Source: Lachnospiraceae bacterium (GTDB lineage: Bacteria > Bacillota > Clostridia > Lachnospirales > Lachnospiraceae). Taken from it: a DNA stretch of 64,000 bases. The DNA lies in the NCBI GenBank assembly GCA_017453065.1, contig JAFTKW010000012.1, positions 39,521 through 103,520 of the forward strand, in the 5' to 3' direction. The number at the start of each line of letters is the position of its first letter. Position 1 is the first letter of the stretch. The notes under the pieces were generated by a model that searched no databases, was not told where the DNA came from, and saw only the letters and a program-made list of their open reading frames with translations. A program made the position numbers and the translations under genes. This document shows, in pieces, positions 16,938-31,984 of this stretch.

Positions 16938-17017
16938 TACGCCTAAAGAGGGATAATAATAGGTGAAAATCCCCCTAAAATATTGAAATACGCCTAAATA
17001 CGTGGTAAAGTTAGGCG
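16938..17017 (+). promoter_or_regulatory. Repeated CGCCTAA motifs upstream of fic
   Basis: TACGCCTAAA occurs at 16938-16947 and 16989-16998 and its core is inverted (TTAGGCG) at 17011-17017, giving a CGCCTAA-13-TTAGGCG inverted repeat ending 20 bases before the Fic start. This is consistent with an operator; the C-terminal winged-helix-like segment of the Fic protein itself is a possible binder. Confidence 0.5.
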
Positions 17018-17037
17018 AAAAGAAAGGCGGTAGGAGA

Positions 17038-18084
17038 ATGAGAAACTTTGACTATAGTAAGATAAAAGAATATCAATGGGATAGCGAAGTACTTGGATTG
17101 GTGGCGCAGATTCACGAATTCAAAGGCCGACAAGAGATGTACCTAAGACAAAAGCCGACGACACTTGAGAAGTTAATCGAGATTGCCAAAATTCAAAGTA
17201 CCGAGGCATCTAACAAGATTGAAGGAATTGTAACTACCTCCTCTCGAATCCAACAACTTTGTATGGACAAAACTACACCTCGAAACAGAGATGAAGAAGA
17301 AATCATGGGATACAGAGATGTGCTCAATACAATACACGAAAACTATGAGTACATTCCACTTCGACCTTCCTATATTCTTCAACTGCACAGAGATTTATAT
17401 AAATACTCTGAAAAAGCTATTGGGGGAAGATACAAGAATACTCAAAATGTGATTGCAGAAAATTGCGCAGATGGAACGCAGAGAGTTATTTTTCCGCCTG
17501 TTGCACCATATGAAACGCCAACTGCAATCGAAGAAATCTGCGAAAACATTAACCGCATGATAGATTCTTGTGAAGTAGATGCTTTGATATTGATTCCTAT
17601 ATTTATTCATGATTTTTTGTGCGTGCACCCATTCAACGACGGCAACGGGCGTATGTCACGCCTTCTTACAACATTACTTTTGTACCGACAAGGCTATGTG
17701 GTTGGAAGATATATTAGTATTGAAAGCAAGATAGAAAAAACGAAAGAAAAATATTATGAAGTTTTGGAACAATGTGGACAGGGCTGGCATGAGGAAAAAG
17801 AAAATCCTATGCCATTTGTAAAATACTTGCTAGGAATTATATTGGCGGCATATCGCGATTTCGAGGGCCGTATCAATTTGGTAGATGATAAATTACCGGC
17901 GCTGGAGCAAGTAAGAGGGGCAGTCAAAGAAAAGATAGGCAAATTTACCAAGAGTGAAATTATGGAATTGGTTCCAGCTATCGGCAAGGCATCTGTGGAA
18001 AATTCTTTAAAGCAATTGACACAGGAAGGTGTAATCGAGAAACACGGAAAAGGCAAAGCAACGTTCTATACCAGAATTGATTAA
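17038..18084 (+). CDS. Fic-family AMP transferase-type protein
   Basis: 348 aa from the ATG at 17038 (site AGGAGA); a 17002 start is less likely. The Fic core has HPFNDGNGR at 197-205, the catalytic loop that transfers AMP or another phospho-group to protein hydroxyls. An N-terminal SNKIEG (58-63) is the class II (S/T)xxxE(G/N) auto-inhibitory motif, so the enzyme is probably held inactive in cis. The C-terminal ~65 residues look like a winged helix (FTKSEIMELVPAIGKASVENSL). It may regulate its own promoter. Targets unknown. Confidence 0.92.
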   Translation: MRNFDYSKIKEYQWDSEVLGLVAQIHEFKGRQEMYLRQKPTTLEKLIEIAKIQSTEASNKIEGIVTTSSRIQQLCMDKTTPRNRDEEEIMGYRDVLNTIHENYEYIPLRPSYILQLHRDLYKYSEKAIGGRYKNTQNVIAENCADGTQRVIFPPVAPYETPTAIEEICENINRMIDSCEVDALILIPIFIHDFLCVHPFNDGNGRMSRLLTTLLLYRQGYVVGRYISIESKIEKTKEKYYEVLEQCGQGWHEEKENPMPFVKYLLGIILAAYRDFEGRINLVDDKLPALEQVRGAVKEKIGKFTKSEIMELVPAIGKASVENSLKQLTQEGVIEKHGKGKATFYTRID

Positions 18085-18122
18085 TGAGAAGAAACTTAAG
18101 AGAAATAGGGGGGCATAAACAC

Positions 18123-19082
18123 ATGAAAACTTACCAAGTAGGCACCAAAAGATTTGACATCACAGACGAAACCAGGGAAGAAAAACTGGGACCAAAGACA
18201 GGCAACCGCATGGTGGCAGTACGCCTTTATTATCCAGCAACAGTGGTAGATGAGGAAAAAGTAGTACTTCCTAAGAAGGCTGTAGGCGAAATGTATAAAG
18301 ACGCGCAGATTGTAACGAGTGAGAAGTTTCCGCTGATCATTTACAACCATGGGTATGGCGCTTATCTAGAGTCCAACAACCACCTTTGCTGTGAATTGGC
18401 TGCAAGAGGCTATGTGGTGGCAGCAGTAGGACATCTTTATGAAGCAAGCAAAATCACTCTGTGTGATGGAACAGAAATCTGCGCTGACAAAGAAGCTTCC
18501 GGTAAAGTGGTTCAACCTCGCTTCAAGGGAACGATTGCCTCTTTAAACTTGCTGAACCTAAAGGGCACTGCAGAAGAAAGATATGAGAAATTTAATGCTT
18601 TCCAGCAAAAATATAGCACCTTTTTGCATGAGAGGTTGCCTGAGTGGGCATCAGATGTAGAGGCAGTAATAGAGAGTTTAAAAAAAGATTACGCCGACCA
18701 TATAGATTTCGAAAAGATTGGCCTGACGGGACATTCCTTTGGTGGAAATGTTGCTTACTATATGTGCATGAATGCGCCAGAGAAGTATATCTGTGGTGTA
18801 AATATTGACGGCGGTATCTTTGGCAACTACGAAGGCATGCGCATGCAAAAACCATTTCTCCAGATTTGTAACAGAGGAAACGAGGGAGTGGTCAGCAGAG
18901 CATTGATACATACAGACGCACCCGTGAGGTACGAGGTTTTTGACAAGGTGACACATTTAGGCTTCACAGACATGTCCCATTACACAAGGATGAAGGCGGT
19001 AAAAGGAGCTTTGCCTTGGAAAAAGATGGACGAGCGATTGGTTGGGCTACATGTGGAATTCTTTGAGGAGTGGATGCGATAA
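18123..19082 (+). CDS. Alpha/beta hydrolase, PAF-acetylhydrolase-like
   Basis: 320 aa from the ATG at 18123, after a GGGGGG run; the longer frame overlaps the fic stop. Alpha/beta-hydrolase elements are YNHGYGA (oxyanion region), the nucleophile elbow GLTGHSFGGN and a late His in VTHLGFTD. Layout resembles bacterial PAF-acetylhydrolase II/dienelactone hydrolase-like esterases. No signal peptide, so cytoplasmic. A decayed copy of its 3' end lies 2 kb downstream (21013-21057). Confidence 0.88.
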   Translation: MKTYQVGTKRFDITDETREEKLGPKTGNRMVAVRLYYPATVVDEEKVVLPKKAVGEMYKDAQIVTSEKFPLIIYNHGYGAYLESNNHLCCELAARGYVVAAVGHLYEASKITLCDGTEICADKEASGKVVQPRFKGTIASLNLLNLKGTAEERYEKFNAFQQKYSTFLHERLPEWASDVEAVIESLKKDYADHIDFEKIGLTGHSFGGNVAYYMCMNAPEKYICGVNIDGGIFGNYEGMRMQKPFLQICNRGNEGVVSRALIHTDAPVRYEVFDKVTHLGFTDMSHYTRMKAVKGALPWKKMDERLVGLHVEFFEEWMR

Positions 19083-19093
19083 TGAAATAAAAA

Positions 19094-19166
19094 ATGCAGG
19101 GAAATGAACTGCCCCCCAAAAGTTAGACTTCTTGGGGCTACATCATTTCCCTGCATATTGTTTTTT
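19094..19166. terminator. Long hairpin between convergent genes, IS-end-like core
   Basis: A perfect 14-bp stem (19094-19107 with 19143-19156) flanked by A and T runs terminates both converging genes. The loop itself contains ACTGCCCCCCAAAAGTTAGAC followed by a partial reverse copy, which resembles the terminal inverted repeat of IS3-family elements and may be a relic. Confidence 0.7.
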
Positions 19167-20121
19167 ATTGAGATGAAGATTCGTTTTGCATTTCCCTCAA
19201 ATCACCATATGCGGTAGGTACATAAGGGGTGGGATTGTAGTCGGTTTTGCTGCTGAGCGTTCCGCCTCCGGTCTCGTTTCCGAAGATTTCGCCCCATCCA
19301 CCGTAGTAATTTAAGTACTCGCGGAAATCGTTGTAGTGGTTGGGGGTGTAGAATACATATACCTCATCGGCTTCGTAGATTCCGTTGCCGTTTTTGTCAT
19401 CGCGTGCATACACAAGTCTGGCTGCACCGCGGGTGATAGAAGTGCCATCGTTGTACACTTTTTTCTGATAGTTTTTGCCGGAAACGGTACCTGTGGTGCC
19501 AAGGTCCATTTCATAATATTGCAAATCACCGCCACAGCCGGAAATATCGGGCAAAACGGGTTCATAAGGGTATTTGTCAGTGTTGCCAGTGAAATACGAA
19601 TGATTACCTCTCAGATAGATACCCCAAGGGTTGGTTCCGACCTTGGTAAGCTTTTTGGAGGTATAGTTTGCAGGCAAACTGTCGTTGCTACCGCCGAATG
19701 CAAACATGTAGGCTGCCACTTCTTCTAAAGTAATATAGGCTGCGCCTTTGTATATTTGCATAACTTCTTGGCCATAAGCATCTACCACAACATAGGTATT
19801 GCCATCATCCAAATAATAGCAAGAGGTATTGCGAATCAGCATGCCGTTTTCGTCTGTAGGCTGATATTCAGATATAGTCGCATATTGGTCTGGCACGAGG
19901 AGCTGACCAGATAGCAAAAAGTGCTGCGAGCGGTAACAAGCATCTGTATAGCAGCAAGCAGGAGTATAATCAGCATAAAAAGCATCCTTATCTACATTAA
20001 CGTAAGGATCGAAGTCATGCCCGCTACACTCGTAAATCCCATCGGACTTGGCAGGGACTTGCTGGCCACAGCCACATATCAGCAGACAAATTAATGTCAA
20101 AAGTAAACTCAAACGTTTCAT
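19165..20121 (-). CDS. Lipoprotein with barnase-like C-terminal domain
   Basis: 318 aa from the ATG at 20121 (AAAGGA upstream). Signal peptide with lipobox ICGC. The last ~100 residues have the pattern RGAARLVYARDD...YVFYTPNHYNDFREY, similar to the end of barnase-type microbial ribonucleases (R..R.LY...IY.T.DHY..F). The equivalents of the catalytic Arg and His are kept, but the position of catalytic Glu reads Lys (KKVYNDG), so nuclease activity is doubtful. Expected at the outer face of the membrane. Function inferred from fold resemblance only. Confidence 0.75.
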   Translation of the reverse strand: MKRLSLLLTLICLLICGCGQQVPAKSDGIYECSGHDFDPYVNVDKDAFYADYTPACCYTDACYRSQHFLLSGQLLVPDQYATISEYQPTDENGMLIRNTSCYYLDDGNTYVVVDAYGQEVMQIYKGAAYITLEEVAAYMFAFGGSNDSLPANYTSKKLTKVGTNPWGIYLRGNHSYFTGNTDKYPYEPVLPDISGCGGDLQYYEMDLGTTGTVSGKNYQKKVYNDGTSITRGAARLVYARDDKNGNGIYEADEVYVFYTPNHYNDFREYLNYYGGWGEIFGNETGGGTLSSKTDYNPTPYVPTAYGDLREMQNESSSQ

Positions 20122-20150
20122 AAAAGATTCCTTTTTCAAGTTCATTAAAA

Positions 20151-20840
20151 TTAGTGCAATTCTTCCAAGGATACCATGCCTTCAAGGTCCGCCATCTTTG
20201 CGAGTAATTCGTCTTTTTTTGCCTTGGCAGGCATTTTGACGGTAATTAGCAGAGCGCGGACGTCGAGGTCTGGCAAATACTCTCGGTCCAACTGAATGCT
20301 TTCAATTTTGATGCCCAGCAAGCGGATGCCTTTGGCAAGTGATCCGATACTGACGGCGCTGTCCACTTCTGCGTACAATTCAAACCAACGACTGCGTTTG
20401 CGAATCTGGTTGTCAAGATTGTGCATGAGGGTCAGGATGAGGAAAATCAGAGGACCACCCATAATGGCTGCTTCATAAAAACCGATGCCTAGTGCGAGAC
20501 CCATTGCGGCCACTGCCCAAAGACCGGCAGCAGTTGTCAAACCACGTATTTTGCTGTTTTTGGTAACGACAATTGTACCTGCACCAAGGAAACCGATACC
20601 GCTAACTACTTGGGCGCCCATTCGTACAGGATCGCCGACGGATACAACTTGATATATATATTGGTTGGTTAACATAATTATGCATGAGCCCACACACACC
20701 AACATGTAGGTTCGCAGACCCGCTGCGCGGCTTCTCATTTCTCGCTCCAGACCAAAGATACCGCCCATCAGAGCCGCCAGAGTAATACGCAATGCTATGG
20801 ATAGATATGTAATTTCTCGTAACTCAATCATGTGATTCAC
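20151..20840 (-). CDS. MgtC/SapB family membrane protein
   Basis: 229 aa. Four to five N-terminal helices carry the MgtC signature (GGIFGLEREMRSRAAGLRTY, GFLGAGTIV, GLTTAAGLWAVAAMGLA). A C-terminal cytoplasmic ACT-like domain (~150-229) follows. The family is linked to Mg2+ homeostasis and F-ATPase or transporter regulation. It precedes the lipoprotein gene by 5-30 bases on the same strand, so the two are probably co-transcribed. Confidence 0.92.
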   Translation of the reverse strand: MNHMIELREITYLSIALRITLAALMGGIFGLEREMRSRAAGLRTYMLVCVGSCIIMLTNQYIYQVVSVGDPVRMGAQVVSGIGFLGAGTIVVTKNSKIRGLTTAAGLWAVAAMGLALGIGFYEAAIMGGPLIFLILTLMHNLDNQIRKRSRWFELYAEVDSAVSIGSLAKGIRLLGIKIESIQLDREYLPDLDVRALLITVKMPAKAKKDELLAKMADLEGMVSLEELH

Positions 20841-21012
20841 TCCTTATAAACGCAATTTCTTCTTCAAAATATAAAAATAGAACTAGGATTAGTAATGATA
20901 GCATATTTTCGGGAAAAGGGCAATTGGCGGAGGGGTTTACCGTGTTGATTATTGTGAAGGGTTAGGTGAAGGTGGTAAAATAGTTGTAAGAAAAAGTGAT
21001 TAGGGGGGAGAG

Positions 21013-21057
21013 GTTGGGCTGCATGAGGAGTTCTTTGAGAAGTGGATGAGAGGGTAG
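21013..21057 (+). pseudogene. Remnant of a hydrolase gene 3' end
   Basis: Frame reads VGLHEEFFEKWMRG-stop against VGLHVEFFEEWMR-stop at the end of the hydrolase gene at 18123-19082. Nucleotides are alike over about 37 bases. No upstream coding part survives. It marks an old duplication or insertion boundary just before the accessory island begins. Confidence 0.7.
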
Positions 21058-21091
21058 AAAATAACAACCGAACAAGCCGAGAGGATAGAGT

Positions 21092-22633
21092 ATGAAAATT
21101 AAGTATAAAATAGGGAAGAAAACATATGAGGAAGATTACTTCCCAAAAGAAAAGATAGAATATTTGATGAGGGGCGAAGAGTATCTTTTTGATGCCGCAT
21201 TGCAATTGGAGATAAGTAAGCTTCAGTCTATTCACGAAGATTGGTTTGTGGAAAGGGAAAAGGAAGGAGAGAAAGGGATACGAGAACATCAGCTCCTATT
21301 TCCCGATGAAACAAGAGATGAGAACGAGGTATACTCACCACATATCCGTTATAGAGTTGAGAACCTAATTCGTTCGTATGCTATTGCCTCAGAGTGTATT
21401 AGTGAATTGAAAGACCTTGTAGAGCAATTATATGAGTCCCAGAAAGAAGCACTACTTGGATATGGAGAGCTAGAGGGAAACGCTAAAATAGAGTTTGATG
21501 AATTTCAAGAGTATTTACTAGATTTCCTGAATCGAGTAGAAGTTCTTCTGTCTGCGAAAAATTCTCTTGCGCATCCCTTGGCTGATTGGGATGCACAAAT
21601 GCCAATCTTTCAAACCATTCCGTGTGTATCTATTGAAAAGTTTGAGGGAATAATTGGCAATGTACAGAAAATGATTAGGGGAGAATATGACAATCTAGAA
21701 AAATACAAAGGGAAAATAAATAACAACCTCAGAAAACAATATATTCGAAACCAACTCAACTTATTGCCAAGCATTTTTACAGAGAAAATCGTTGTGGAAC
21801 CGGACTTGTTAAGAAGTGCAAAAACAGCAGTTTGGGGTAGAAGTATATCGCAAATTGATAATATTAAAATGATGGTTAATCCAAGTGGGTTTGAGCAACG
21901 CAGTGGTACTCTAGAAGAGGCGTTTGTGGATTTAATTAATGAAAGTGCTGAATGCCCTTATTCATATGAGGAGATCACAAACGACGACGTATATGTTAGC
22001 CTAATAGGTAAATTAGAAGATAATATAGATCAACTTATTAAATTGAATAGAAACAAGAAAAAGAATTATTTTGAAAATAGAAAATGCTGTGTTGCAGTGT
22101 TTGATTTAAATGCAACAACAAGACTGTTTTCCCTAAGTGGACCAAAAGATTATGACGGAACATATGACAATAATCATGTGAATTGGCCTCCTGCTGACAA
22201 GGTATATTCAGTGTTGAGTGAGGATTCTTTGCATCGCTATGTTTGGTGCAAATTAACGCCAGCAGTAAAAAGATATAGACATAAGGCACCTGATAAAAGT
22301 ATATGGCCATTATCTGAAGGCGTTGCGTTTGAAACATTAGGTAGTTTGACGTCAGAACCAGAAGTTCCAAAAGAGCTCGGAGGTGATTTTAGCTGTTGCG
22401 AAAGAAAAATATTTGCTTATTTTGAAAATGATTTAACGCAATGCGATAGTTTTACAAAAATGACTACTCGTTGGCCACCTTGTGAACTCTGTAAACCAGC
22501 TATAAACGACCTATATAATAGTGGCAAAATATATATTGATTGCTATTATATATGGGAGAGCCAAGATAAATATGTAGAATATCTGAATAAATATTTGGAA
22601 GAACGACGATCTCGAGAGAGAAGAGAAGTTTGA
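21092..22633 (+). CDS. 513-aa protein with C-terminal deaminase-like zinc domain
   Basis: Not a family I can name. Residues 1-330 are mostly helical and charged. From ~331 a deaminase-like pattern appears: a first beta hairpin (CCVAVFDLNATTRLFSLSG), then C435-C436-E437 (a CxE metal/proton-shuttle motif like HxE/CxE) in FSCCERKIFAYFEN, and P463-C464-x-x-C467 in RWPPCELCKPAI. Spacing and secondary structure fit the cytidine-deaminase-like fold, in which Cys/His and PCxxC bind Zn and Glu shuttles protons. Base deamination of nucleic acid or nucleotides is therefore possible. It opens the accessory island and is followed by a strong terminator. Function untested. Confidence 0.8.
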   Translation: MKIKYKIGKKTYEEDYFPKEKIEYLMRGEEYLFDAALQLEISKLQSIHEDWFVEREKEGEKGIREHQLLFPDETRDENEVYSPHIRYRVENLIRSYAIASECISELKDLVEQLYESQKEALLGYGELEGNAKIEFDEFQEYLLDFLNRVEVLLSAKNSLAHPLADWDAQMPIFQTIPCVSIEKFEGIIGNVQKMIRGEYDNLEKYKGKINNNLRKQYIRNQLNLLPSIFTEKIVVEPDLLRSAKTAVWGRSISQIDNIKMMVNPSGFEQRSGTLEEAFVDLINESAECPYSYEEITNDDVYVSLIGKLEDNIDQLIKLNRNKKKNYFENRKCCVAVFDLNATTRLFSLSGPKDYDGTYDNNHVNWPPADKVYSVLSEDSLHRYVWCKLTPAVKRYRHKAPDKSIWPLSEGVAFETLGSLTSEPEVPKELGGDFSCCERKIFAYFENDLTQCDSFTKMTTRWPPCELCKPAINDLYNSGKIYIDCYYIWESQDKYVEYLNKYLEERRSRERREV

Positions 22634-22658
22634 TAAATCAGTGTGATATAAAGGTCTA

Positions 22659-22692
22659 AAAGGTTCTTTGCGCATTTGCGCAAAGAACCTTT
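22659..22692. terminator. Terminator, 16-bp perfect stem
   Basis: AAAGGTTCTTTGCGCA and its exact complement with a 2-base loop, between the convergent deaminase-like and TRIC-family genes; both outer flanks supply T runs. Confidence 0.88.
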
Positions 22693-22695
22693 CTC

Positions 22696-23499
22696 TTAGC
22701 AGAGACGGATTCTATGAAGAACGATATAAACCCTTAAGCAATTCGTATGCTTAAAAAAGAATCGATTTGTAACGTGATTATGTGTTTTAGCAAAGCATGC
22801 TTGGATGGATTGTATTATTGTTTCGAGGTTAAATTTGACAAATACAGATATAAATTGAACATGATTGTATGTAAACAAAATTCGATAATTGATCTTATCG
22901 GCTAATAAGCCAATCGATATTAGAGTGCATAATATATATCCATTCTGGAGATGGCTGTAAAGAATACAAGATATGAATACAACAAAATGATAATACATAT
23001 TTGATGCGGTTATGACTGTATAAAGTTGTAAAAAATTGGCTAGGACACCTCCCCAACAGGCAGTAACATATCCGCTAATGATTGCCACATGACTATCATA
23101 TCCTAAAGAATAAGCCTTATCGATACCGATAGCTGCAAAACTGCCTACACTGAGGGCGTCGATAAAACCGACTATGGAATCACAAATTAGTAGCTCTCTT
23201 GAAGTGTATTCTTTTGCAATTTTTGAATATAGAATTCCAATCAGCAAGACATATAGAATGTCTGGAATTGCATCAAGGGTAAATAACCATACTTTCGTGT
23301 TCATAATTAACACATCACGTGCAAGGCCTCCACCAAAACTATTTATTAAAAAGTGAAAAATAGGAACTTGGCAGAAATTTTTTCCTTTATGGTAACCACT
23401 AACCACACAGGTAATCAACCCAAACCAGTATATGAGGGTCATGAGTGAGTCGGAACTATTAATGTTGATAACGGCTGTGATGTGATTGCATGTCGTCAT
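22696..23499 (-). CDS. TRIC/UPF0126 family membrane protein
   Basis: 267 aa with about seven hydrophobic helices. Two internally repeated halves carry the family glycine motifs: FGGGLARDVLI in the first and WGGVLANFL in the second, with DALSVGSFAAIGIDKA between. UPF0126/TRIC proteins are cation channels or small-molecule (glycine) transporters. The start has AAAAGGAGG. The C-terminal ~70 residues after the last helix are unusual and not recognised. Codon use is AT-rich like the rest of the island. Confidence 0.82.
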   Translation of the reverse strand: MTTCNHITAVININSSDSLMTLIYWFGLITCVVSGYHKGKNFCQVPIFHFLINSFGGGLARDVLIMNTKVWLFTLDAIPDILYVLLIGILYSKIAKEYTSRELLICDSIVGFIDALSVGSFAAIGIDKAYSLGYDSHVAIISGYVTACWGGVLANFLQLYTVITASNMYYHFVVFISCILYSHLQNGYILCTLISIGLLADKINYRILFTYNHVQFISVFVKFNLETIIQSIQACFAKTHNHVTNRFFFKHTNCLRVYIVLHRIRLC

Positions 23500-23562
23500 A
23501 ATGGAACCTCCTTTTTTGAATAAATATTTTGTACATCTCGTGCCATAAAAAATACAAAAAAA

Positions 23563-23629
23563 CAGAGCCGCTTGTGTAAGTGACTAATCCATGTTGAATA
23601 TTGATTAGTCGTCTACATAAGCGGCTCTG
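23563..23629 (-). terminator. Long terminator hairpin of the small-ORF operon
   Basis: A 27-base imperfect stem (23563-23589 with 23603-23629) is followed on the minus strand by TTTTTTTGTATTTTTT. It overlaps the stop codon of the 48-aa ORF. Confidence 0.85.
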
Positions 23630-23759
23630 AACTCCTGATAAATTCACGGTTTGATGCACTCGTAAACGGTTTTGTAGTTTTGCTTCGATCGTTTCCTGCT
23701 CTATTGCGGATTCTGGTCTGATTATTTCCTCGTATAAAGGATGAGTTTTCTTTATTCAA
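23613..23759 (-). CDS. Small basic protein, 48 aa, TTG start
   Basis: Begins at TTG 23759 after AGAGGAAAAAAAA, overlapping the end of the preceding 86-aa gene by 8 bases, which suggests translational coupling. The product is basic and polar (starts MNKENSSFIRGNNQTRIRNR), has no membrane segment and is unlike any family I know. Its stop lies in the terminator stem. Confidence 0.5.
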   Translation of the reverse strand: MNKENSSFIRGNNQTRIRNRAGNDRSKTTKPFTSASNREFIRSSEPLM

Positions 23760-24012
23760 TTTTTTTTCCTCTTTCTAAGCTGTCGCCTTCAGTATAGGAT
23801 TTGGGTGATGTTTTTTTGCCCACCGGCACCCGATATTCAGGGCGGACGGTTGCGTTTTGTGTAATCCATGCCACAAAAATTGAAATTGGGATGGTTTCAG
23901 TTTTTTTTGTGCGAGGATTCTTCAATTCAACGCAAGGTTCTCTTTCATCATAGTAGAGGATTTGAAAGAGTGGAATTTTCTTCCCGGGCGAATACAACAT
24001 TTTTCTTTTCAT
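23752..24012 (-). CDS. Small hypothetical protein, 86 aa
   Basis: The ATG at 24012 follows GAAAGGAGATTTGCTAC; a longer frame to 24096 would run through the upstream terminator. The product (MKRKMLYSPGKKIPLFQIL...) is basic at both ends with a central beta-rich segment. Not recognised. First of two overlapping small genes read away from the 410-aa HTH gene. Confidence 0.65.
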   Translation of the reverse strand: MKRKMLYSPGKKIPLFQILYYDEREPCVELKNPRTKKTETIPISIFVAWITQNATVRPEYRVPVGKKTSPKSYTEGDSLERGKKIE

Positions 24013-24064
24013 GTAGCAAATCTCCTTTCTAGTATTTTTCTTTATTTTGTTCAGTTGATTGGAA

Positions 24065-24101
24065 CAAAAAAACACGGTGAATCTTTTTGATCTCACCGTG
24101 T
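24065..24101 (-). terminator. Terminator or attenuator upstream of the 86-aa gene
   Basis: ACACGGTGA pairs with TCACCGTGT (24072-24080 with 24093-24101) and is followed on the minus strand by TTTTTTTG. It requires a transcript starting further upstream, which supports a short RNA or peptide gene at 24134-24211. Confidence 0.8.
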
Positions 24102-24133
24102 AAAAGCTGGTTTATGCCTAAAAAAGACCTAGG

Positions 24134-24211
24134 TCATGTGGGCAGGAATTTCCGTGAGATCATTAAATTTAAGTCAGCTAGCATATTGAAAATAATACGT
24201 TTGTGTTTCAC
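24134..24211 (-). CDS. Micro-ORF, 25 aa, GTG start
   Basis: A GTG follows a canonical AAGGAGG with an 11-base spacer. The peptide starts MKHKRIIFNMLADLNLMIS and is short, basic and partly hydrophobic. Its own terminator follows 33 bases later. It may be a leader peptide, a small toxin or a signalling peptide; none can be shown. Confidence 0.35.
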   Translation of the reverse strand: MKHKRIIFNMLADLNLMISRKFLPT

Positions 24212-24405
24212 CTTTGCAATGACCTCCTTCATTTCCTATTTTCTATATTAAGCATAGCGCGTTGTTTGAAAAAATAAAAGAGAAAAAGGCGTACAACCTT
24301 GTTGAAAATCTTGTCTATTTTTAGACTAAAGTTCTACATAATATGGACATAATTAAGTCTACTATATATAATGAAAATGACATTTTTACTAGGGGGATGA
24401 GTAGT

Positions 24406-25638
24406 ATGAAGGGCAAGAAAGAAAATAAAAAAATCGAGGAAAAGCAGCGTGACGACCAAAGAGTACGAGATGCGTATATCAAGAAGGTAAAAAAAGCCTT
24501 GAATGCGGCGCGCAACGAAGCCAATAAGAAGGAAGAATTGTCGGAATATAAATTATTGGCGGAGATTCGTAAGGCATATGGCTTTAAACTTGCAAGGCAG
24601 ACACTGCGCAATTTATTTGATGAAAAGAGCAATAGTCTAGATTATGCGTGCCTCGTGACTGTATGCAGATTTTACGGATTTGATTTCAATAAAATTCTTT
24701 CACCGGAACCAATTAATGGGGCAGAAGAGAAGTTTCGAACCTGTGCTGCCCCAAGGTACAGGGTATTAGATGACCAAAACAATAAGGGTATAAATAACGA
24801 GATATATGCGGGCGAGCTATTTGCTAAGAGCACGAGGGAAGTTAAAGATAAGTTCTTGGTTTTAACTGATGATAGTTATTTTGGTACTTTTTATGGTTAT
24901 ACTGCATCCGAAGATAGTACAAAGACTACACCGAATGAATTTACTTTGAAGATAGAGAGAGACGCAAATACTGACGTTAGCAGTGCCACTTTGAGGACAA
25001 CAATGTCTTATGAAGATTCTGGCAAGGTGAATGACGTCGTCGAGTCTTATCATGGTATCCCCGTGTTTGTTACTTCCTATCGAGTTATAATACTGTTTTT
25101 GGTTAAAGATAATACAGGTGAATTCCGTCAAATGTCATTTTCTTACAAAGAACACGAAAATGGTATGGGACTCATTTTTCGACATGGCATAATGCTGACT
25201 GGAGAACGTCTAAATGGTGAAACACTATGCGCGCAAAGTTTTGTGCTTTTTAACAAGCAAATTCAGGAGGATAAGTACCAGTATTTGCTAGGGCTATTAA
25301 AAACTCCGAATCATACTTTTAGTGTGCCGATTGATGAAGCAATGGAATTAGCGAAAACTGATGTGGATGTTGCTGATTTCTTGGAACAATTTAGCGGGGC
25401 GCTGAATAGACATAGGAAAGAAGTCTATATGATTAATGAGGATAATATCCTCCATGACAAGGCATCAAATATGATGAAAGATAATATAGTAAAGGCTCTT
25501 TTGCGTCTGAAACAAAAAGCAAGATTACAGAATGTGTATCATTATAGGGCAGCAAAATACCGTTTTGAAAACTTTGCGGTAAGTGAACTTGCGGGTGTTA
25601 AATTTGAGGTTGATAAAGTTAATAAGCAAGGGTCCTAA
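24406..25638 (+). CDS. 410-aa protein with XRE-like HTH, unknown function
   Basis: Start chosen at ATG 24406, nine bases after AGGGGG; earlier starts lie on or before that site. The first ~45 residues are a charged helix; residues ~45-100 resemble a Cro/C1 HTH (YKLLAEIRKAYGFKLARQTL). The remaining ~300 residues are a beta-rich domain (DKFLVLTDDSYFGTFYGYT, YRVIILFLVKDNTGEFRQM) and a helical C-terminus that I cannot assign. It is divergent from the small-ORF operon, suggesting a regulator-plus-effector or self-contained sensor. A terminator follows. Confidence 0.75.
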   Translation: MKGKKENKKIEEKQRDDQRVRDAYIKKVKKALNAARNEANKKEELSEYKLLAEIRKAYGFKLARQTLRNLFDEKSNSLDYACLVTVCRFYGFDFNKILSPEPINGAEEKFRTCAAPRYRVLDDQNNKGINNEIYAGELFAKSTREVKDKFLVLTDDSYFGTFYGYTASEDSTKTTPNEFTLKIERDANTDVSSATLRTTMSYEDSGKVNDVVESYHGIPVFVTSYRVIILFLVKDNTGEFRQMSFSYKEHENGMGLIFRHGIMLTGERLNGETLCAQSFVLFNKQIQEDKYQYLLGLLKTPNHTFSVPIDEAMELAKTDVDVADFLEQFSGALNRHRKEVYMINEDNILHDKASNMMKDNIVKALLRLKQKARLQNVYHYRAAKYRFENFAVSELAGVKFEVDKVNKQGS

Positions 25639-25720
25639 AAATTTTATGTTTCGCCATGGGTAGTTCAGTAGTACTTGTAGAGTAGTTATAGAAACAAAGA
25701 GGAAAAAGCTATTTTTTTCT

Positions 25721-25750
25721 AAACAGCTCGCACTAATGTGTGAGCTGTTT
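25721..25750 (+). terminator. Terminator after the 410-aa gene
   Basis: AAACAGCTCGCAC pairs with GTGTGAGCTGTTT around TAAT, about 80 bases after the stop. A T-rich stretch comes 15 bases later, followed by TTATTGGACAC, which also follows the terminator at 30936-30969. Confidence 0.7.
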
Positions 25751-25814
25751 CCTTATATCGCAACTTTTTTATTGGACACGTCCTATGTTACCCCAAATGC
25801 AGGAGGCGTAAATT

Positions 25815-26080
25815 ATGGGTACTATTGTGACTGATGAAGGGAGTTTTTGGAATCATGAAAATCAGGTATTAGAGAGACTTGCGGAATGCGGTTGAGTGAA
25901 TGGCTCCCAAGTGCATTGTATGAGATTGAGAATTATATGGATTTTGATACCCATACAGGAAGATATATATATTCTTAATTCTTCCGAACAGGTAAAAAGA
26001 GTGAAGATTATAGCGACACTGAAGTCGCGGTATATAGGATGGATTTAGATGACGAGACGTTTAGAGCTTCATTTGAATGA
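25815..26080 (+). pseudogene. Decayed small gene, frameshifted
   Basis: Three short frames in succession read as one broken protein: MGTIVTDEGSFWNHENQVLE..., then LPSALYEIENYMDFDTHTG and SEDYSDTEVAVYRMDLDDET..., interrupted by one stop and two frame changes. A good ribosome site (AGGAGG) precedes the first ATG. The family is not recognised. The 25639-26225 gap otherwise holds only the terminator above. Confidence 0.6.
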
Positions 26081-26225
26081 GGCTAAAGAAGTTGCTACAA
26101 TAAATATGGTTGTAAGAGCGTAGGAGTACATTGTGTAGTTTTACTATCATGGTATTTGTGTATGTGATATACTGAATTTGACAGGCTTACAAGAGAAGCA
26201 AGAGGTATGCAAGGAGACGCAAGAG

Positions 26226-27251
26226 ATGAACATAACCTTTTTTATCGGGAATGGATTTGATATTAATCTGGGCTTAAAAACAAGATATGAGAACTTTTAT
26301 CCTTTTTTTATTAGTAACGCGCAAGAAAATAATATGATTAGAAATTGGATAGATGGAAATGAAAGCTTGTGGGCGGATTTGGAGGAAAAACTTGGGCAAG
26401 AACTCGTAAGACTCTCGCAAGATAGATTAGAACAGTTTTATAGCGATAAGGAGGAGTTAGATAAACTTTTACTTGAATACTTGGAGAAAGAGCAAGAAAA
26501 GTATTGTTTTGAGGATCGGGATAAGCTTAAAAAGGAGTTTACAAGGAGTATGGAGACTTTTTTTGTCGGACTACCAGCAAAAGATATTGCTTCAATAAAT
26601 GCTACGCTCGATAAGTATAAAAACGAGGAATATGTATACGCATTTATTACTTTTAATTATACCAATGTTCTGGACAAATTTATCGAACTTTATGGTACTA
26701 CAAGAGTAATAGCTGGTCATCCAGGTAATTCGGTGCAAAAAGGGAATCGCCTAGGGAATGTTATTCATATACATGGGACAACAAATGAAGAGATGATACT
26801 TGGGGTAAATGATGAGACTCAAGTACAGAATGACGTTTTGAAACAGGATGAAGTTTTTTTAGACACATTTATTAAAAAGAGAATGAATAATGGTATTGGA
26901 CAAAGAAAAACAGAAAGGGCGCTAGATCTAATAAGCAAGAGCCATATTATATGTATTTTCGGAATGTCTATTGGAAATACGGATAAGATGTGGTGGGAAG
27001 AATTAATCAAGTGGTTAGTATCAAATGAGAATAATAAAATAATTATTTTTTGGAAGGGATATGAAGATGCGTTAAGACGCAAATTGCCTTCTGCTGTAAT
27101 AAGGCTAAATGAAAAGATTAAGAGAAACTTTTTTGAAAAAGGGAAAGGGCAATATGAAGAAAGCCTATACTCTGAGATTAAAGACAGAATAATGATATCA
27201 TATAATTCTAATATTTTTTCTTTATCAAGAGTAGAGGAAGAAGAGAAATAG
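26226..27251 (+). CDS. AbiH-family abortive infection protein
   Basis: 341 aa from the ATG at 26226 (AAGGAG upstream). Family hallmarks are visible in order: N-terminal ITFFIGNGFDINLGLKTRY, central FITFNYTNVLD, VIHIHGT and a late IICIFGMSIGNTDKMWW. AbiH was described as a phage abortive-infection gene in Lactococcus; the nucleotide-binding-like N-terminus and SIR2-like topology are family features. It probably forms an operon with the next gene(s), which would act in the same defence response. Confidence 0.9.
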   Translation: MNITFFIGNGFDINLGLKTRYENFYPFFISNAQENNMIRNWIDGNESLWADLEEKLGQELVRLSQDRLEQFYSDKEELDKLLLEYLEKEQEKYCFEDRDKLKKEFTRSMETFFVGLPAKDIASINATLDKYKNEEYVYAFITFNYTNVLDKFIELYGTTRVIAGHPGNSVQKGNRLGNVIHIHGTTNEEMILGVNDETQVQNDVLKQDEVFLDTFIKKRMNNGIGQRKTERALDLISKSHIICIFGMSIGNTDKMWWEELIKWLVSNENNKIIIFWKGYEDALRRKLPSAVIRLNEKIKRNFFEKGKGQYEESLYSEIKDRIMISYNSNIFSLSRVEEEEK

Positions 27252-27315
27252 GAAAAAACTTAGTGAGAGTATAAAATAGATTCTACTACGAAAAAGGAAG
27301 TGCGCCAGCGATAGG

Positions 27316-27522
27316 TTGTTTTCTGTATTTGGTATTTTATTGTGTACATACGTTTTTGCTATGGATAATGTCGTTGGTAGGATTTGCTACATGGGTTGTG
27401 ATACTTATAATAGTGTTGTATCTAGGGTGTCACGTTATGTTGATAAAGGCAAAAAATCGATACATTTATTGAACAAGAGCGTTTTTCTTGTAAAATCTCG
27501 AGGAATAGTTGAAAGGATATAG
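27316..27522 (+). CDS. Possible small ORF between AbiH and next gene
   Basis: A 68-codon frame from TTG with no convincing ribosome site; its stop lies 2 bases before the TTG start of the next gene. The N-terminus is hydrophobic (LFSVFGILLCTYVFA). It may be a small membrane peptide or simply non-coding leader; no similarity recognised. Confidence 0.25.
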   Translation: MFSVFGILLCTYVFAMDNVVGRICYMGCDTYNSVVSRVSRYVDKGKKSIHLLNKSVFLVKSRGIVERI

Positions 27523-27524
27523 AG

Positions 27525-28370
27525 TTGGTTTCATTAAAAAATGAGTTTCAAAGAAATAGATATTACGTTAACCGTGACAAAGAAATGGTTAGATTAATAG
27601 ATATTCTTAGAAACGTTAGAGATTTCATAGATAATTTGAGTAATTTAGCGTTTGGAAGAGATATACCATTTTATAGAAAGGTAGGATTTGCTGACGCGAA
27701 TATAAATCTAAGGTCAGCAGCAAGAACGTTAGAGAGTATTCGATACTGTTGTAAAAATGCTAATTTTGCTGATGCGTATACATTACTTCGCAAATACCGA
27801 GATGATTTGTTCTATTACTTATATTTATTATCTGTTTCAGATAACAGTGATATTACAGAATATGTGGATGTAGGACATTTAAAAAAAGAAGAGAAAGACA
27901 TATGGGATTGGGCACACAATCAACAAGAGAATTTATACATTAGTGAAGTATTAAAATATATAGCGTTTCATTCTGCGGCTAAAGAAGCAGTGCATGAGTT
28001 TGGACTGAAGGAATTGTTTGATGAGTTGGCAGATAAACTTAATGATTATGTGCATTCTAATGGCTACAAATTTTATAATAGGCCATATCAGATGCTTAAT
28101 TCACATAGAGAAGTGCGTAATCTTTGTAATGACTTTTGCAACTCAACGTTGACCATAACAATTACCTTTCTGTTTTTAACTATATTGATCAGACCATTAG
28201 TGGTTATGTCAACAGATTATACAGATTATCTTGAAGTGGGAGATATACCACCAGATAATTCAGAGTATTGGGTTGCACCATTTGTATCTGACTTTTTAAC
28301 TAAGTATAAAGACCTGTTAGATGAAAAATGTATTATTTATTTACGGAAGCAAACAAAAATGGAAATATAG
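27525..28370 (+). CDS. 281-aa helical protein, HEPN-like, unknown
   Basis: Starts at TTG 27525 with AAAGGA seven bases upstream. The product is almost all alpha-helical, with a late hydrophobic helix (TLTITITFLFLTILI). Conserved-looking motifs are RKYRDDLFYYLYLL and LNDYVHSNGYKFYN; an R...H arrangement of this type is seen in HEPN ribonuclease-like proteins, but I cannot confirm the Rx4-6H motif. Position between AbiH and an nSTAND ATPase suggests an anti-phage role. Annotated as unknown. Confidence 0.7.
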   Translation: MVSLKNEFQRNRYYVNRDKEMVRLIDILRNVRDFIDNLSNLAFGRDIPFYRKVGFADANINLRSAARTLESIRYCCKNANFADAYTLLRKYRDDLFYYLYLLSVSDNSDITEYVDVGHLKKEEKDIWDWAHNQQENLYISEVLKYIAFHSAAKEAVHEFGLKELFDELADKLNDYVHSNGYKFYNRPYQMLNSHREVRNLCNDFCNSTLTITITFLFLTILIRPLVVMSTDYTDYLEVGDIPPDNSEYWVAPFVSDFLTKYKDLLDEKCIIYLRKQTKMEI

Positions 28371-28404
28371 TTAGTGTACAAGGGAGTGAGAAAAAAGAGT
28401 AGGT

Positions 28405-28448
28405 AAAGGAGATTTGGATATGTGTGAATACATAAACAAATCTCCTTT
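28405..28448 (+). promoter_or_regulatory. Hairpin masking the micro-ORF ribosome site
   Basis: AAAGGAGATTTG (28405-28416) is perfectly complementary to CAAATCTCCTTT (28437-28448). The left arm contains the Shine-Dalgarno of the ORF at 28420 and the right arm lies inside that ORF, so folding would block its translation. There is no T run, so it is not an ordinary terminator. Confidence 0.55.
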
Positions 28449-28524
28449 GATGTTACATAGGGAAAAGAATCTGTTGAGAGATAGAATATTCAAAAGTATA
28501 ATAGGAATAGAGAACAATTCCTAA
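28420..28524 (+). CDS. Micro-ORF, 34 aa, upstream of nSTAND3 gene
   Basis: ATG 28420 has an ideal AGGAG at 9-10 bases. The product starts MCEYINKSPLMLHREKNLL and is not recognised. It ends 18 bases before the ATPase gene. Its ribosome site sits in a 12-bp hairpin. A leader peptide or a small partner of the ATPase are both possible. Confidence 0.4.
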   Translation: MCEYINKSPLMLHREKNLLRDRIFKSIIGIENNS

Positions 28525-28542
28525 AGAAAAGGATGAAGAGGG

Positions 28543-30837
28543 ATGTACAATTTTAGAAACTTAAGCGATGTAGAATTTGAAATATTATGTAAAGACATTA
28601 TGCAAAAGAGGCTTGGAATTACGTTGTACATATTTTCTAAAGGGCGAGATGGGGGAATTGACATTGTAGATAATTCATATACTAAAAAGATAGTAATACA
28701 AGTCAAGCATTACATTAACAGTACATATTCAAATCTTCGGACGAGTCTTAAGAAAGAAGTGGCGCATGTTGAAGAAATGAAGCCAGGGAAATATTATGTT
28801 TGCTGTGCACAGGAACTTACTGCAGCTAATAAGAATGAAATTTATGGTCTCTTTTCTGAATATATGGAAAGCTCGAATGATGTCATTGCTTTGCAAGACA
28901 TAAACGAGTTTTTAGAGAATCCCGATAATATAGATATAGTTAGGAAACATTATAAATTGTGGCTTGAATCTACAAATATTTTGGCGGAAGTATTTAATCA
29001 AAGCATATTTATCGATTGTGAATCCCTTTTGTATAATATTGAAAACAACAGTAGAGAGTTTGTTGCAACAAATTGTTATTGGGAATGTTTGGAAATCCTT
29101 GAAAGAGAACGGTTGCTTTTACTCTTAGGAATGCCTGGAACAGGAAAGACAGTAACAACAAAAATGTTAGCATTATTCTATGCGGCAAATGGATACAGAA
29201 TTCGCTATACGACCAATGGTGATCTTAAAGATTTAAAGAATGCTCTTTCTGCAAATAAGGATTTACCAGAGATAGTGTTGTTAGATGATTGCTTTGGGCA
29301 GCATTATTTCAAAATGAAGGAGAGCCAAGGGAACGAATTATTAGCATTAGTCAAGTATATATTGATGAATAAAAACAAAAGATTGATTATGAATTCTCGA
29401 GTAACGATTTATCAACAGGCAAAGGAGAGATTTCTAGAATTTCGGCAATTTGCTGAAGACAAGCAATTTCAAATACAAGTATTAGATATGGGTAAGATAT
29501 CTATAGAAGATAGAGGTAAAATATTTTATAACCACTTATTTTTTAAAGATTTACCGATAGGATATTATCAAGATATCTTAAATAATCAAAACTATAAGAA
29601 AATTGTTAAGCATAAAAACTATACGCCACGAATCATGGAATTTGTAACGAGAAATGTGAACTATAGTAAAATTATGGAGAGCCGATATGCGGAATATATA
29701 TTAGCTTGTTTGGATAATCCGACTGAGATTTGGCAAGACGAATTTTCGAACAAGTTGCAACAAGAAGATAGAATTTTTATGACAACATTATATTCGCTTA
29801 CCGATACTAGTATTGATGTTGAAAGGCTAAAAAGAGCGTACAATTATAGACTAATGAAAACAATGACAATTGATACGACAAGAAATGTGTGGGAGGAGGT
29901 ATTGAAGCGCCTAGAAGGATCGATGTTAGTTATTGTTGAGAAGAATGGAAAGCAAGAGATAGGTGTCATCAACCCATCAGTAAATGATTTTTTGAGAAGA
30001 TTTCTGGAAGAAAACGACAATGAACGTGAGAATATACAAAATTGCGCGACAGAGTATGAGCAAATAAAGAGGGGATTTGCGCGAGACATGGAGAGCATAG
30101 TGCGAAATGGAGATGCTATGCTGTATAGTTATGCTTCGGAAAGTGAAAAGTTGCATGTGATTTTGACTTATATTTGTAAAATGAAGATTACGAACGAAAG
30201 TTATCAATGTTTAGTAGAAAGTTTTTTTGGAAACTTATCATATTATTATGGCGGCGTTGATCTGATGAGTAGGTGTCGTTTGTTTATAGAACTGTTAAAC
30301 GATGAACTTGCAGAATTCTATGATGTCAGCAGTTGTATAAAAGAGGAAAAGGTAAAAGAATTACTCTGGGATATGAGTTTAAGAGAATATCAAGAACTTA
30401 TCAACTTGTCGAAAGAAACGGGGATAGATTTTTGGTATGAAGAGTATATAGATACATTTATTACAGCTTTAAACGCAGCCATCAAGGTTTACATAGAAGA
30501 GATTGATGTTTATGATTATTGCGATAATTACGACGTGAGTGGATTAATAGACGTTGATTGGGGCTATAGTTATTCTGAGAGGAGGCTTGCGGCTATAACA
30601 ATATGTGGATGGATAAGAGATGATGTCGAAGACGAAATTGCAGATATGTTAGAAAAACTTCCAGAGAGCGTATTTGACAAGATAAACATAAGCGGAGAGG
30701 ACATAGATACTTGTGTCGAAGAGGCAGAAGCATATGTACTTTCCTATTTCCAACCAGAACCAGATTATGACAGAGATGATTATTATAGAAGAGATTATTC
30801 AGAGTCTGATAGCGCGCTAGACTATATATTTAAATAG
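28543..30837 (+). CDS. PD-(D/E)XK nuclease fused to nSTAND3 ATPase
   Basis: 764 aa. Residues 1-110 are an Mrr-like restriction-endonuclease fold: G34-R-D36-GGID40 and Q53-V-K55 form the D...QxK active site. A STAND-type P-loop NTPase follows with Walker A GMPGTGKT (196-203) and Walker B IVLLDD (244-249), matching the nSTAND3 group. The C-terminal ~350 residues are helical and acidic and would be the sensor. Nuclease-STAND fusions are anti-phage sensors (Avs-like architecture), though this one is shorter than characterised Avs proteins. Start preceded by GAAGAGGG. Confidence 0.88.
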   Translation: MYNFRNLSDVEFEILCKDIMQKRLGITLYIFSKGRDGGIDIVDNSYTKKIVIQVKHYINSTYSNLRTSLKKEVAHVEEMKPGKYYVCCAQELTAANKNEIYGLFSEYMESSNDVIALQDINEFLENPDNIDIVRKHYKLWLESTNILAEVFNQSIFIDCESLLYNIENNSREFVATNCYWECLEILERERLLLLLGMPGTGKTVTTKMLALFYAANGYRIRYTTNGDLKDLKNALSANKDLPEIVLLDDCFGQHYFKMKESQGNELLALVKYILMNKNKRLIMNSRVTIYQQAKERFLEFRQFAEDKQFQIQVLDMGKISIEDRGKIFYNHLFFKDLPIGYYQDILNNQNYKKIVKHKNYTPRIMEFVTRNVNYSKIMESRYAEYILACLDNPTEIWQDEFSNKLQQEDRIFMTTLYSLTDTSIDVERLKRAYNYRLMKTMTIDTTRNVWEEVLKRLEGSMLVIVEKNGKQEIGVINPSVNDFLRRFLEENDNERENIQNCATEYEQIKRGFARDMESIVRNGDAMLYSYASESEKLHVILTYICKMKITNESYQCLVESFFGNLSYYYGGVDLMSRCRLFIELLNDELAEFYDVSSCIKEEKVKELLWDMSLREYQELINLSKETGIDFWYEEYIDTFITALNAAIKVYIEEIDVYDYCDNYDVSGLIDVDWGYSYSERRLAAITICGWIRDDVEDEIADMLEKLPESVFDKINISGEDIDTCVEEAEAYVLSYFQPEPDYDRDDYYRRDYSESDSALDYIFK

Positions 30838-30935
30838 AAAAATGCTCCTTGTTTTTTGAATCTTTAGCGGTTTGTCAAATTCTGCAATTCTTTGCGTATA
30901 TTCGGATGAGCAACATATTATTTTAAAACTGATAA

Positions 30936-30969
30936 CAAACGGCATCGCGTATATACGCGGTGCCGTTTG
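30936..30969 (+). terminator. Hairpin after the nSTAND3 gene
   Basis: CAAACGGCATCGCGTA pairs with TACGCGGTGCCGTTTG around a 2-base loop, about 100 bases downstream of the stop, without an immediate T run. TTATTGGACAC follows 16 bases later and, with TAGAAT 16 bases on, could be a promoter. The rest of 30838-31273 holds only a decayed ORF. Confidence 0.6.
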
Positions 30970-31033
30970 CTTTGCAAAAGCCCTTTATTGGACACCTTCA
31001 AAGTACAACTAGAATCGAGGGGATATGTAAAAG

Positions 31034-31181
31034 ATGATGAATCTAGAAAATGCAGGGGTAAATTCAAAGCATAAAACTTAAACTATATGATGAAGAAATT
31101 ATAGTAGGAGAAAAAATATTAGATTTAAATCCTATCGCTTGCAGTAAATCAAAAAATACTGTAATAGAGTTTCTGGAGTGA
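31034..31181 (+). pseudogene. Frameshifted short ORF
   Basis: MMNLENAGVNS from ATG 31034 (GAGGGG upstream) breaks after about 12 codons; a one-frame shift continues as IKLKLYDEEIIVGEKILDLN...VIEFLE-stop. Codon use in the second part looks coding. Family unknown. Confidence 0.45.
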
Positions 31182-31273
31182 CATCTTTAGGTAAACAAAT
31201 CTTCCTAATCTCGCCGCAATTTGCTATAATAAATATCGTTAAGAGTCAACGGCTATCTAGGGGAGAAACCAAG

Positions 31274-31984
31274 ATGACAGACCAAGAAAAAATCAACTTC
31301 ATAAGTGGAAAAATCAAGGAAATAAATGCCATTACAAGTGAAATAGAAGAAGTATTTCCTGAGAAATCTTTTAAAATGGATGGAATACTCATCGGGAACA
31401 TTGTGGAAGTATTAACTGCTCATATGTATGGAATCACATTGTACAAGCAGTCTGAGAAAACTTATGATGGCGAAGTGGGTGGCAGAAAAGTTCAGATTAA
31501 AGGAACGCAAGGAAATGGCAGCATTGTTTTTCGCGATGAGCCGGATTATTTGTTAGTGGAATATCTGGACAAGGAGAATGGTACGATTCAGGAAATCTAT
31601 AATGGCCCGGGTTCATTGGTTTGGCCGTTTAGAAGTTATGTTCCAAGCATGAATCACTACACAATTCGAGTAAACAAACTAAGAGAACTTGATGAAACGG
31701 TAGCGGATGAAGAACGAATAAAAGCAACTGTGCCTGTCCAAAAATTTAAAGGGCAGAAACAGTCTATAGTGCGGTCAGAATTTAAACCTAGCAAAAGCAA
31801 AGAAAGAAAAACATTAGTAGAAGGTTATATAAACAGGAACAATCAAGAAAACAGAGGATGCTTGAACAAGCCAGGCAATCACTATAATCAAGTGGCATAT
31901 TTACTTCATTGCAACTGTTGTGGATTTGAATATGAAGCAAATGGTTGTGATGTGGCGATAAGAAAGTGCCCAAAGTGTATGTAA
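31274..31984 (+). CDS. PD-(D/E)XK-like (DUF6998-type) protein with zinc ribbon
   Basis: 236 aa from the ATG at 31274 (AGGGGAGAAACCAAG). Residues ~30-140 resemble the DUF6998 domain: IGNIVEVLTAHMYGITLY, then YDGEVGGRKVQIKGTQ, a D...QIK nuclease-like core, and EIYNGPG. The C-terminus has two zinc-ligand pairs, CNCCG and CPKC. It could be a nuclease or the DNA-binding partner of neighbouring restriction genes. It lies between the nSTAND3 gene and the Sau3AI-like system. Activity is inferred. Confidence 0.72.
   Translation: MTDQEKINFISGKIKEINAITSEIEEVFPEKSFKMDGILIGNIVEVLTAHMYGITLYKQSEKTYDGEVGGRKVQIKGTQGNGSIVFRDEPDYLLVEYLDKENGTIQEIYNGPGSLVWPFRSYVPSMNHYTIRVNKLRELDETVADEERIKATVPVQKFKGQKQSIVRSEFKPSKSKERKTLVEGYINRNNQENRGCLNKPGNHYNQVAYLLHCNCCGFEYEANGCDVAIRKCPKCM

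Follow-up and report, generated by a model that had tools for sequence, protein, structure and literature searches.

The window analysed here, a stretch of 64,000 nt from a Lachnospiraceae bacterium, holds a gene for a 513-aa protein that we read as a new and rare effector of phage defence, modular and of the deaminase type, whose C-terminal 180 residues would form a zinc-dependent domain of the deaminase superfamily, and which would act in the cytoplasm as a single-gene system; we give this reading a probability of roughly 0.6. It would be a rare new branch of a known kind of effector and not a new kind of system. The deaminase reading is likely. That residues 330-513 have the deaminase fold is, judging from their sequence, quite probable. 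The role in defence is suggested by context, namely by the neighbourhood in which the gene lies.

The features of the gene and of its surroundings are collected in Table 1. The open reading frame, its coordinates, its length and the residue numbers given for it in the earlier note are all correct. Its product, read from the plus strand, has 60 kDa and a pI of 5.1, and from this pI and the lack of any hydrophobic segment (best 19-residue average 1.0) the protein is predicted to be most likely cytoplasmic. The gene stands alone, with an MgtC-like gene divergent upstream and a gene with a Gly_transporter domain (22696-23499, minus strand) convergent downstream, and an operon partner was rejected because of this convergent neighbour. 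The hairpin between the two gene ends is likely the shared terminator of both; a terminator scan did not call it. An ORF of 141 aa on the opposite strand (20864-21289) overlaps the start of the gene; Pfam gave nothing for it at E up to 0.01.

Table 1. Features of the 513-aa protein gene and genes of the surrounding island (positions in the window).
Feature	Position	Strand	Basis
513-aa protein gene with C-terminal deaminase-like domain	21092..22633	+	intact ORF, read from the sequence
Shine-Dalgarno-like AGAGG, 7 nt 5' of the ATG	21080..21084	+	read directly from the sequence
N-terminal region, residues 1-329, without significant relatives	21092..22078	+	PHROGs, Pfam, BLAST and hhalign comparisons
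C-terminal deaminase-like domain, residues 330-513	22079..22630	+	three-member alignment; sub-threshold deaminase matches of residues 429-513
Putative beta1-beta2 hairpin, residues 332-350	22085..22141	+	strands assigned by eye
F433-S-C435-C436-E437-R438-K439, putative first zinc ligand, proposed catalytic Glu and conserved Arg	22388..22408	+	identical in 3/3 members
P462-P-C464-E-L-C467, putative second and third zinc ligands	22475..22492	+	PPCxxC in 3/3 members
Perfect hairpin between convergent gene ends (21092-22633 + and 22696-23499 -)	22659..22692	.	folding z -4.6 for 22630-22705
AbiH	26178		island gene
Mrr-nSTAND3 protein matching PDC-S73	28543		island gene
DUF6998	31178		island gene
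Sau3AI/MutH-type restriction enzyme	32243		island gene
C5 methylase (with the Sau3AI-type restriction enzyme)	33897		island gene
GmrSD/HEC-06	35321		island gene

The C-terminal part carries the motif from which the earlier note had proposed a deaminase-type zinc centre: C435-C-E437 and PC464xxC467 are present, as F433-S-C435-C436-E437 and P463-C464-x-x-C467. The beta hairpin said to precede them is likely to exist upstream of the motif (C333-VAVFDLNATTRLFSLS-G350), its strands being drawn by eye, as was the putative order of the elements of a three-layer alpha/beta deaminase fold (hairpin, helix, strand, helix), and the terminal Ser-Gly of the hairpin is aligned by MAFFT in all three members of the family described below. 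The loose pattern [CH]xE-x15-45-PCxxC arises in 23 of 20000 shuffles of the protein and the same pattern with PPCxxC in none of 20000; within the window, where 180 stretches of 80 aa or more run from stop to stop, one of them has [CH]xE-x12-60-PCxxC.

Two distant relatives share this motif. The first is a 563-aa protein (L013:1031-2722) with FSCCERK-x17-PPCYMC, from a human faecal, unverified 'Bacteriophage sp.' record (MT837131.1), which was matched at E 5 when the C-terminal domain was compared by tblastn with 50,697 phage records, three of them being returned at E up to 10. The second is a stand-alone ORF of 162 aa (L016:3217-3705) with FSCCERK-x19-PPCELC, found on one IMG/VR viral contig by a DNA pattern for CCERK-x-PPCxxC. 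The block common to the three members is thus FSCCERK-x17-22-PPCxxC, with spacers of 17, 19 and 22 residues, 11 residues identical in all three and 13 between the window and phage proteins, and in each member FSCCERK ends 59-74 residues from the C-terminus. Conservation of the Cys and Glu residues among homologues had been set beforehand as the point on which the proposal could fail, and they are kept in 3/3 members; in the phage protein this is not independent because the search pattern demanded them, so that only the faecal relative is a partly independent test of conservation. Four further residues, which the pattern left free, agree between the phage ORF and the window protein: the F and S of the first motif and the E and L within PPCELC.

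When the window domain was used as query, the viral contig was confirmed at 6e-5, as one of 13 candidate stretches; conversely, when the phage protein was compared by tblastn with the phage records, MT837131.1 had the best E of the five records returned (E 2). The pairwise BLAST E-values of the three members are 6e-6, 5e-7 and 1e-6, for pairs that were preselected for similarity, and the unmasked score of each of the three pairs is reached by 0 of 2000 shuffles. When the motif is masked the similarity is gone, the same score being attained in 904, 1040 and 1017 of 5000 shuffles, and the flanks anchored on the motif, taken as a whole, fall short of significance (P 0.22, 0.10 and 0.07, 500 shuffles each), with P 0.02, 0.05 and 0.09 for the stretch between both motifs in the three motif-anchored pairs. 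The masked test, as a comparison of sequences, speaks against homology beyond the FSCCERK/PPCxxC block, and from it and the flank test it follows that the relation rests on the eleven-residue block and on its place near the C-terminus. The domain is C-terminal in the window and faecal proteins and makes up nearly the whole of the phage protein. No similarity was found by BLAST or hhalign among the two N-termini (330 and 390 residues) and the 265-aa gene upstream in the phage, and the idea that this 265-aa gene is a split-off N-terminus of the window protein was rejected for lack of similarity. We tentatively suggest, as a possibility to which we give well under even odds, that the three belong to a new deaminase family serving bacteria, mobile elements and phages as a portable effector, in which an FSCCERK/PPCxxC enzyme would be joined at its N-terminal side to triggers of unrelated kinds in the two members from bacterial or mobile surroundings and would stand alone in a phage, base-editing nucleic acid or nucleotides during infection.

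The surroundings of the two relatives are also of note. On one side of the faecal gene is a 255-aa ORF that matches HEPN weakly (E 0.023), on the other a phage-integrase fragment (PF00589, E 2.5e-6), and a weak PemK-like ORF (E 0.0041) lies downstream; together, the weak HEPN-like (L013:1-768) and PemK-like (3430-4002) genes and the integrase fragment have the look of a cassette of conflict genes, despite the filing of the record as a phage. In the phage, the deaminase-like gene and the 265-aa one next to it make up a short cassette on the plus strand, adjoining a minus-strand ParB-N6/N4 methylase gene. This 265-aa protein (L016:2310-3107), encoded directly upstream of the deaminase-like gene and without a significant family, is a possible partner of it.

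Further relatives were looked for widely. Among 398 genomes of the phylum, the own genome and eight weak partial matches (E 0.002-0.09) were returned, the latter being chance matches in which re-alignment gave no CxE...PCxxC. With the C-terminal domain as query, 392 genomes of the order gave the own genome and two weak matches, of which one (L011) was rejected as antisense to a transposase-like ORF and the other (L012) has an internal stop. Searches of the genome contigs gave eight stretches by peptide patterns, none of them a relative, and three matches by motif pattern, none with the motif in an ORF. By tblastn, plasmids gave no match at 1e-3 and three records at E 5, the one examined being antisense to a hypothetical gene; phage records gave no match at 1e-2, and for phage pf16, present in two copies among three records at E up to 10, the ORF of the copy examined was without the motif. 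Further searches of viral contigs either gave nothing or recovered only the same true contig, six of the seven matches of one such search having no such ORF, and an alignment profile run against 398 genomes of another phylum gave two weak matches, both rejected by their ORFs.

From about 21 to 37 kb the GC content is 0.31-0.39, down from 0.41-0.48, and for this low-GC block it is true that, as the earlier note had it, the gene takes the first position of a defence-like island: it stands at the start of the block and lies amid known defence genes of matching composition, with a GC3 of 0.29, compared with 0.25-0.36 in the eight measured island genes from 24343 to 37120 and 0.46-0.50 in the three genes at 18084-20840. 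In a protein search of 99 relatives the sole match was the gene itself, which is absent from the other 98, 60 of them of the same genus. When the DNA of 19000-38900 was searched, 19 of 138 genomes of the genus, the own included, matched some part of it at E up to 1e-20; the listed matches fall on the DUF5677-like, nSTAND3, restriction and methylase genes and on the MarR and flavodoxin genes of the right flank, and among these listed matches 21092-22633 was covered by the own genome only, with no more than two candidates scored for each genome. Given this absence from relatives in both the protein and the DNA searches, the gene is probably patchy and acquired. It is conceivable that it derives from a phage or another mobile element, coding for instance for an anti-defence or nucleotide-modifying enzyme, and came to lie in the island by chance; that one relative is a phage protein and the other adjoins an integrase fragment would suit such an origin, as would the absence from the 98 other relatives searched. 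However, the gene sits among defence genes of similarly low GC, and the island proteins scanned included no recognisable product of a phage or integrase gene, so that we consider this origin unlikely.

Library searches place the protein in no family at a normal threshold. With E allowed up to 1, Pfam, PADLOC and NCBIfam gave no match for the whole protein, and in PHROGs it matched two families of unknown function at E 0.11 and 0.29; within these four libraries the word 'undescribed', used in the earlier note, is borne out. The N-terminus gave nothing significant, its best matches being PRANC (E 0.13) and PHROGs of unknown function (E 0.07 and 0.19), and a HEPN domain there was rejected because RxxxxH is absent by eye. 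Residues 321-513 and 400-493 matched no Pfam family at E up to 10, residues 321-513 and 429-513 matched no NCBIfam family, and NCBIfam gave no deaminase for any piece scanned. Sequence searches of the PDB gave no credible relative, the best being an EF-hand protein at E 0.05 (residues 106-152); a second such search reached E 0.93 and a third gave no match. The core (residues 429-513), however, has two Pfam matches in all among 24,736 models, and both are toxin-type deaminases below the cut-off: PF14427 Pput2613-deam covers residues 449-494 at E 0.11, and PF14424 Toxin-deaminase covers residues 437-474, from E437 through PCxxC, at E 0.12. Ten shuffled cores served as control, five with FSCCERK and PPCxxC fixed and five fully shuffled. 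Four of them match unrelated families, the best of each at E 0.04-0.14, and therefore the E-values of the core alone mean little; none of the ten matches a deaminase, so that more than the fixed motif letters must account for the direction of the matches.

Over the family, profile matches are all sub-cut-off, at E 0.02-0.12: the faecal C-terminal domain is matched best, within Pfam, by PF00383 dCMP_cyt_deam_1 (E 0.046), and the core of this domain matches PF25508 TRPM2-like (E 0.023) and, about equally, PF00383 (E 0.025, over the PCxxC region). No Pfam family was found for the whole 563-aa faecal protein or for the phage protein. Searches of the own genome with PF00383, PF14437 and PF14424 miss the 513-aa gene. 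In searches run by genome record, the faecal protein was picked up by PF00383 (E 2e-4, record of 7.6 kb), which missed the window and phage proteins, and none of the three members was found by PF14437 or PF14424. The claim of a deaminase is supported by the motif, by the two relatives and by weak, one-sided profile evidence in which every score lies below the curated cut-offs.

Comparison with real deaminases points in the same direction. A PF00383 search gave 36 places, 30 of which were taken as loci; with L061 these made 31, of which 25 were used, the remaining six (L042, L045, L049, L055, L056 and L061) being excluded for their shortness or because they belong to different types. The last of these, a sub-cut-off match of PF14431 from a search of 61 relatives, was rejected as a candidate, its HAE...PC standing in another arrangement. 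The resulting sets, from 13 genomes, were Cdd (n=5), dCMP-deaminase-like (n=9) and TadA-like (n=11), and 19 of 21 loci formed a set of HNH domains. In hhalign the three-member core scores 20.7 with Cdd, 21.8 with dCMP-deaminase-like and 25.0 with TadA-like proteins, with PCxxC in register, and 12.6 with HNH domains (n=19). Column-shuffled cores reach the observed score in 1/100, 0/100 and 0/100 cases, respectively, and those of a longer alignment in 1/100, 0/100 and 0/99. The hhalign probabilities are low (3.9-23%, and 47% for the faecal core alone with TadA), and the phage core alone scores 12.4 with the dCMP set and 12.1 with HNH.

As described in the available part of PMC9897663, the motif of cytidine deaminases is C(A/G)E(R/C/T)X followed by PCXXCRQ, with Cys53 as a ligand, Glu55 essential and Arg56 conserved. 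The Cdd of the own genome reads CAER...PCGVC. The window protein resembles the tetrameric Cdd (PF00383) in having Cys-x-Glu-Arg followed by PCxxC, with three Cys as would-be ligands, but fails the strict motif: CCERK has Cys in place of A/G and Lys after the Arg, and CELCKP has KP in place of RQ (PMC9897663, available part). It also differs in that roughly 80 residues separate the putative hairpin from the CxE block and in its N-terminus of 330 residues, and PF00383 gives it no score, the faecal relative being matched below the cut-off. The invariant second Cys (C436) is unusual at a position where the cytidine-deaminase motif has A/G. This Cys bears on the reading in which the protein is no enzyme: it would have an unrelated fold, with C435, C436, C464 and C467 making up a structural zinc site, and would bind nucleic acid or serve some other purpose. 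Such a site would account for C435 and C436 being both invariant, for the departure from the A/G that PMC9897663, in its available part, gives as the middle residue, and for a similarity of the members that is confined to the block. Against it, the Glu, Arg and Lys of the block are as invariant as its Cys, the profile matches of the window core are deaminases only, and the HNH zinc family scores below the three deaminase sets for the joint core, and we therefore hold a purely structural site to be distinctly unlikely.

The two toxin-type families, PF14427 (Pput_2613-like) and PF14424 (BURPS668_1122-like), are the sole Pfam models for the window core and have in common with it the C-terminal placement. 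It could accordingly be asked whether the protein is an inter-bacterial polymorphic toxin, residues 1-330 being the delivery part of a deaminase tip brought into neighbouring cells, as might be expected from these best Pfam matches and from the different N-termini that precede a C-terminal deaminase in 2/3 members. Unlike such toxins, of which its profile matches stay below the cut-off, the protein has no known secretion or delivery domain in Pfam and no hydrophobic segment; neither an immunity gene nor any small gene on the same strand was found 3' of it, where the next gene is the convergent one, and its neighbours are intracellular defence systems. We judge a delivered toxin to be improbable. 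Of the anti-phage or toxin-type role put forward in the earlier note, the defence part gains from the island context and the toxin part lacks a delivery domain and an immunity gene.

A toxin of the AvcID type restrained by upstream RNA is very improbable. AvcD is a deaminase toxin with an RNA antitoxin (PMC10511110, available part) and 251 nt of intergenic DNA precede the gene, but the RNA of these 251 nt folds no better than shuffles (z 0.42), has no Rfam match reaching the gathering score and contains no tandem repeats.

The effector reading places the protein beside several known systems. With AvcD and the DCD-type dCMP-dCTP deaminases it would share a deaminase-type effector in a defence setting, which indicates a possible mode of working. 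It differs from these in having no PADLOC match (0 families at E up to 1) and no signal of an upstream RNA antitoxin by folding or Rfam, both of which an unstructured RNA could escape. The N-terminus of AvcD is kinase-like, and no kinase-like domain was detected in that of the window protein. The deaminase of the CARF-adenosine deaminase Cad1 is of the adenosine-deaminase (metal-dependent hydrolase) type. Cad1, as far as the available part of its description goes, is alike in joining a sensor part to a base-deaminating effector; Pfam found no CARF domain in the window protein. No publication on a CCERK- or SCCERK-type deaminase was found among the papers searched, the family list of Iyer et al. 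(2011) lying outside the comparison.

If the deaminase-type effector is real, C435, C464 and C467 would hold Zn2+, E437 would shuttle a proton and so activate the zinc-bound water, and R438 would offset the charge of the three-thiolate site, as an Arg does in the tetrameric cytidine deaminases. On phage infection, the enzyme would remove the amino group from cytosine, or from another base, in nucleotides or nucleic acid, and this deamination would starve or mutate the phage or stop the cell. Both kinds of substrate have precedents, since AvcD depletes nucleotides (PMC10511110, available part) and the DNA deaminase toxin DddA edits nucleic acid (PMC7901873, available part); the toxin-type profile matches make us lean slightly towards nucleic acid, as far as sequence likeness can tell. 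The N-terminal 330 residues may hold the enzyme inactive, or place it, until it is triggered, and would be the natural place for control of the effector. Since the searches gave neither a delivery part nor an immunity gene nor an antitoxin, and since the neighbours act intracellularly against phages, the simplest reading is an effector that stays inactive until infection. The sensor of about 330 residues named in the earlier note is a guess: nothing points to sensing, the N-terminus is without a significant match and has no counterpart in the phage relative, and no trigger or partner of the protein was found.

If this is true, a deaminase family outside the models of Pfam, NCBIfam, PADLOC and PHROG, with a Cys-x-Glu-Arg zinc site of the cytidine-deaminase type, exists in a natural defence setting, which would suggest that scarce defence effectors can be recognised by their active-site block where whole-protein searches fail. 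Single-gene deaminase effectors are easily tested, and new nucleic-acid deaminases are wanted for editing tools.

Several other elements of the region deserve mention. To the left of the low-GC block lies a Fic-domain protein (17002-18084, plus strand) with a strong PADLOC match to SoFic (8.9e-38), and the gene adjoining the MgtC-like one (19165-20145, minus strand) encodes a 326-aa protein with a sub-threshold match to barnase-type ribonucleases (PF00545, E 0.0029, residues 194-276). Inside the island, an inverted repeat of 28 nt (27194-27221 and 31109-31136, 86% complementary) flanks the DUF5677-like and Mrr-nSTAND3 (PDC-S73) genes and could mark them as a movable pair, and a long palindrome (30936-30969, two overlapping arms of 24 nt, 96% complementary) lies between the nSTAND3 and DUF6998 genes. 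The island protein of 431 aa encoded at 24343-25638 (plus strand) has no significant family in Pfam, PADLOC, NCBIfam or PHROGs, and its true start may lie downstream of the listed one, because a sigma-70-like promoter with 11 of 12 matching positions (24344-24372) overlaps the latter.
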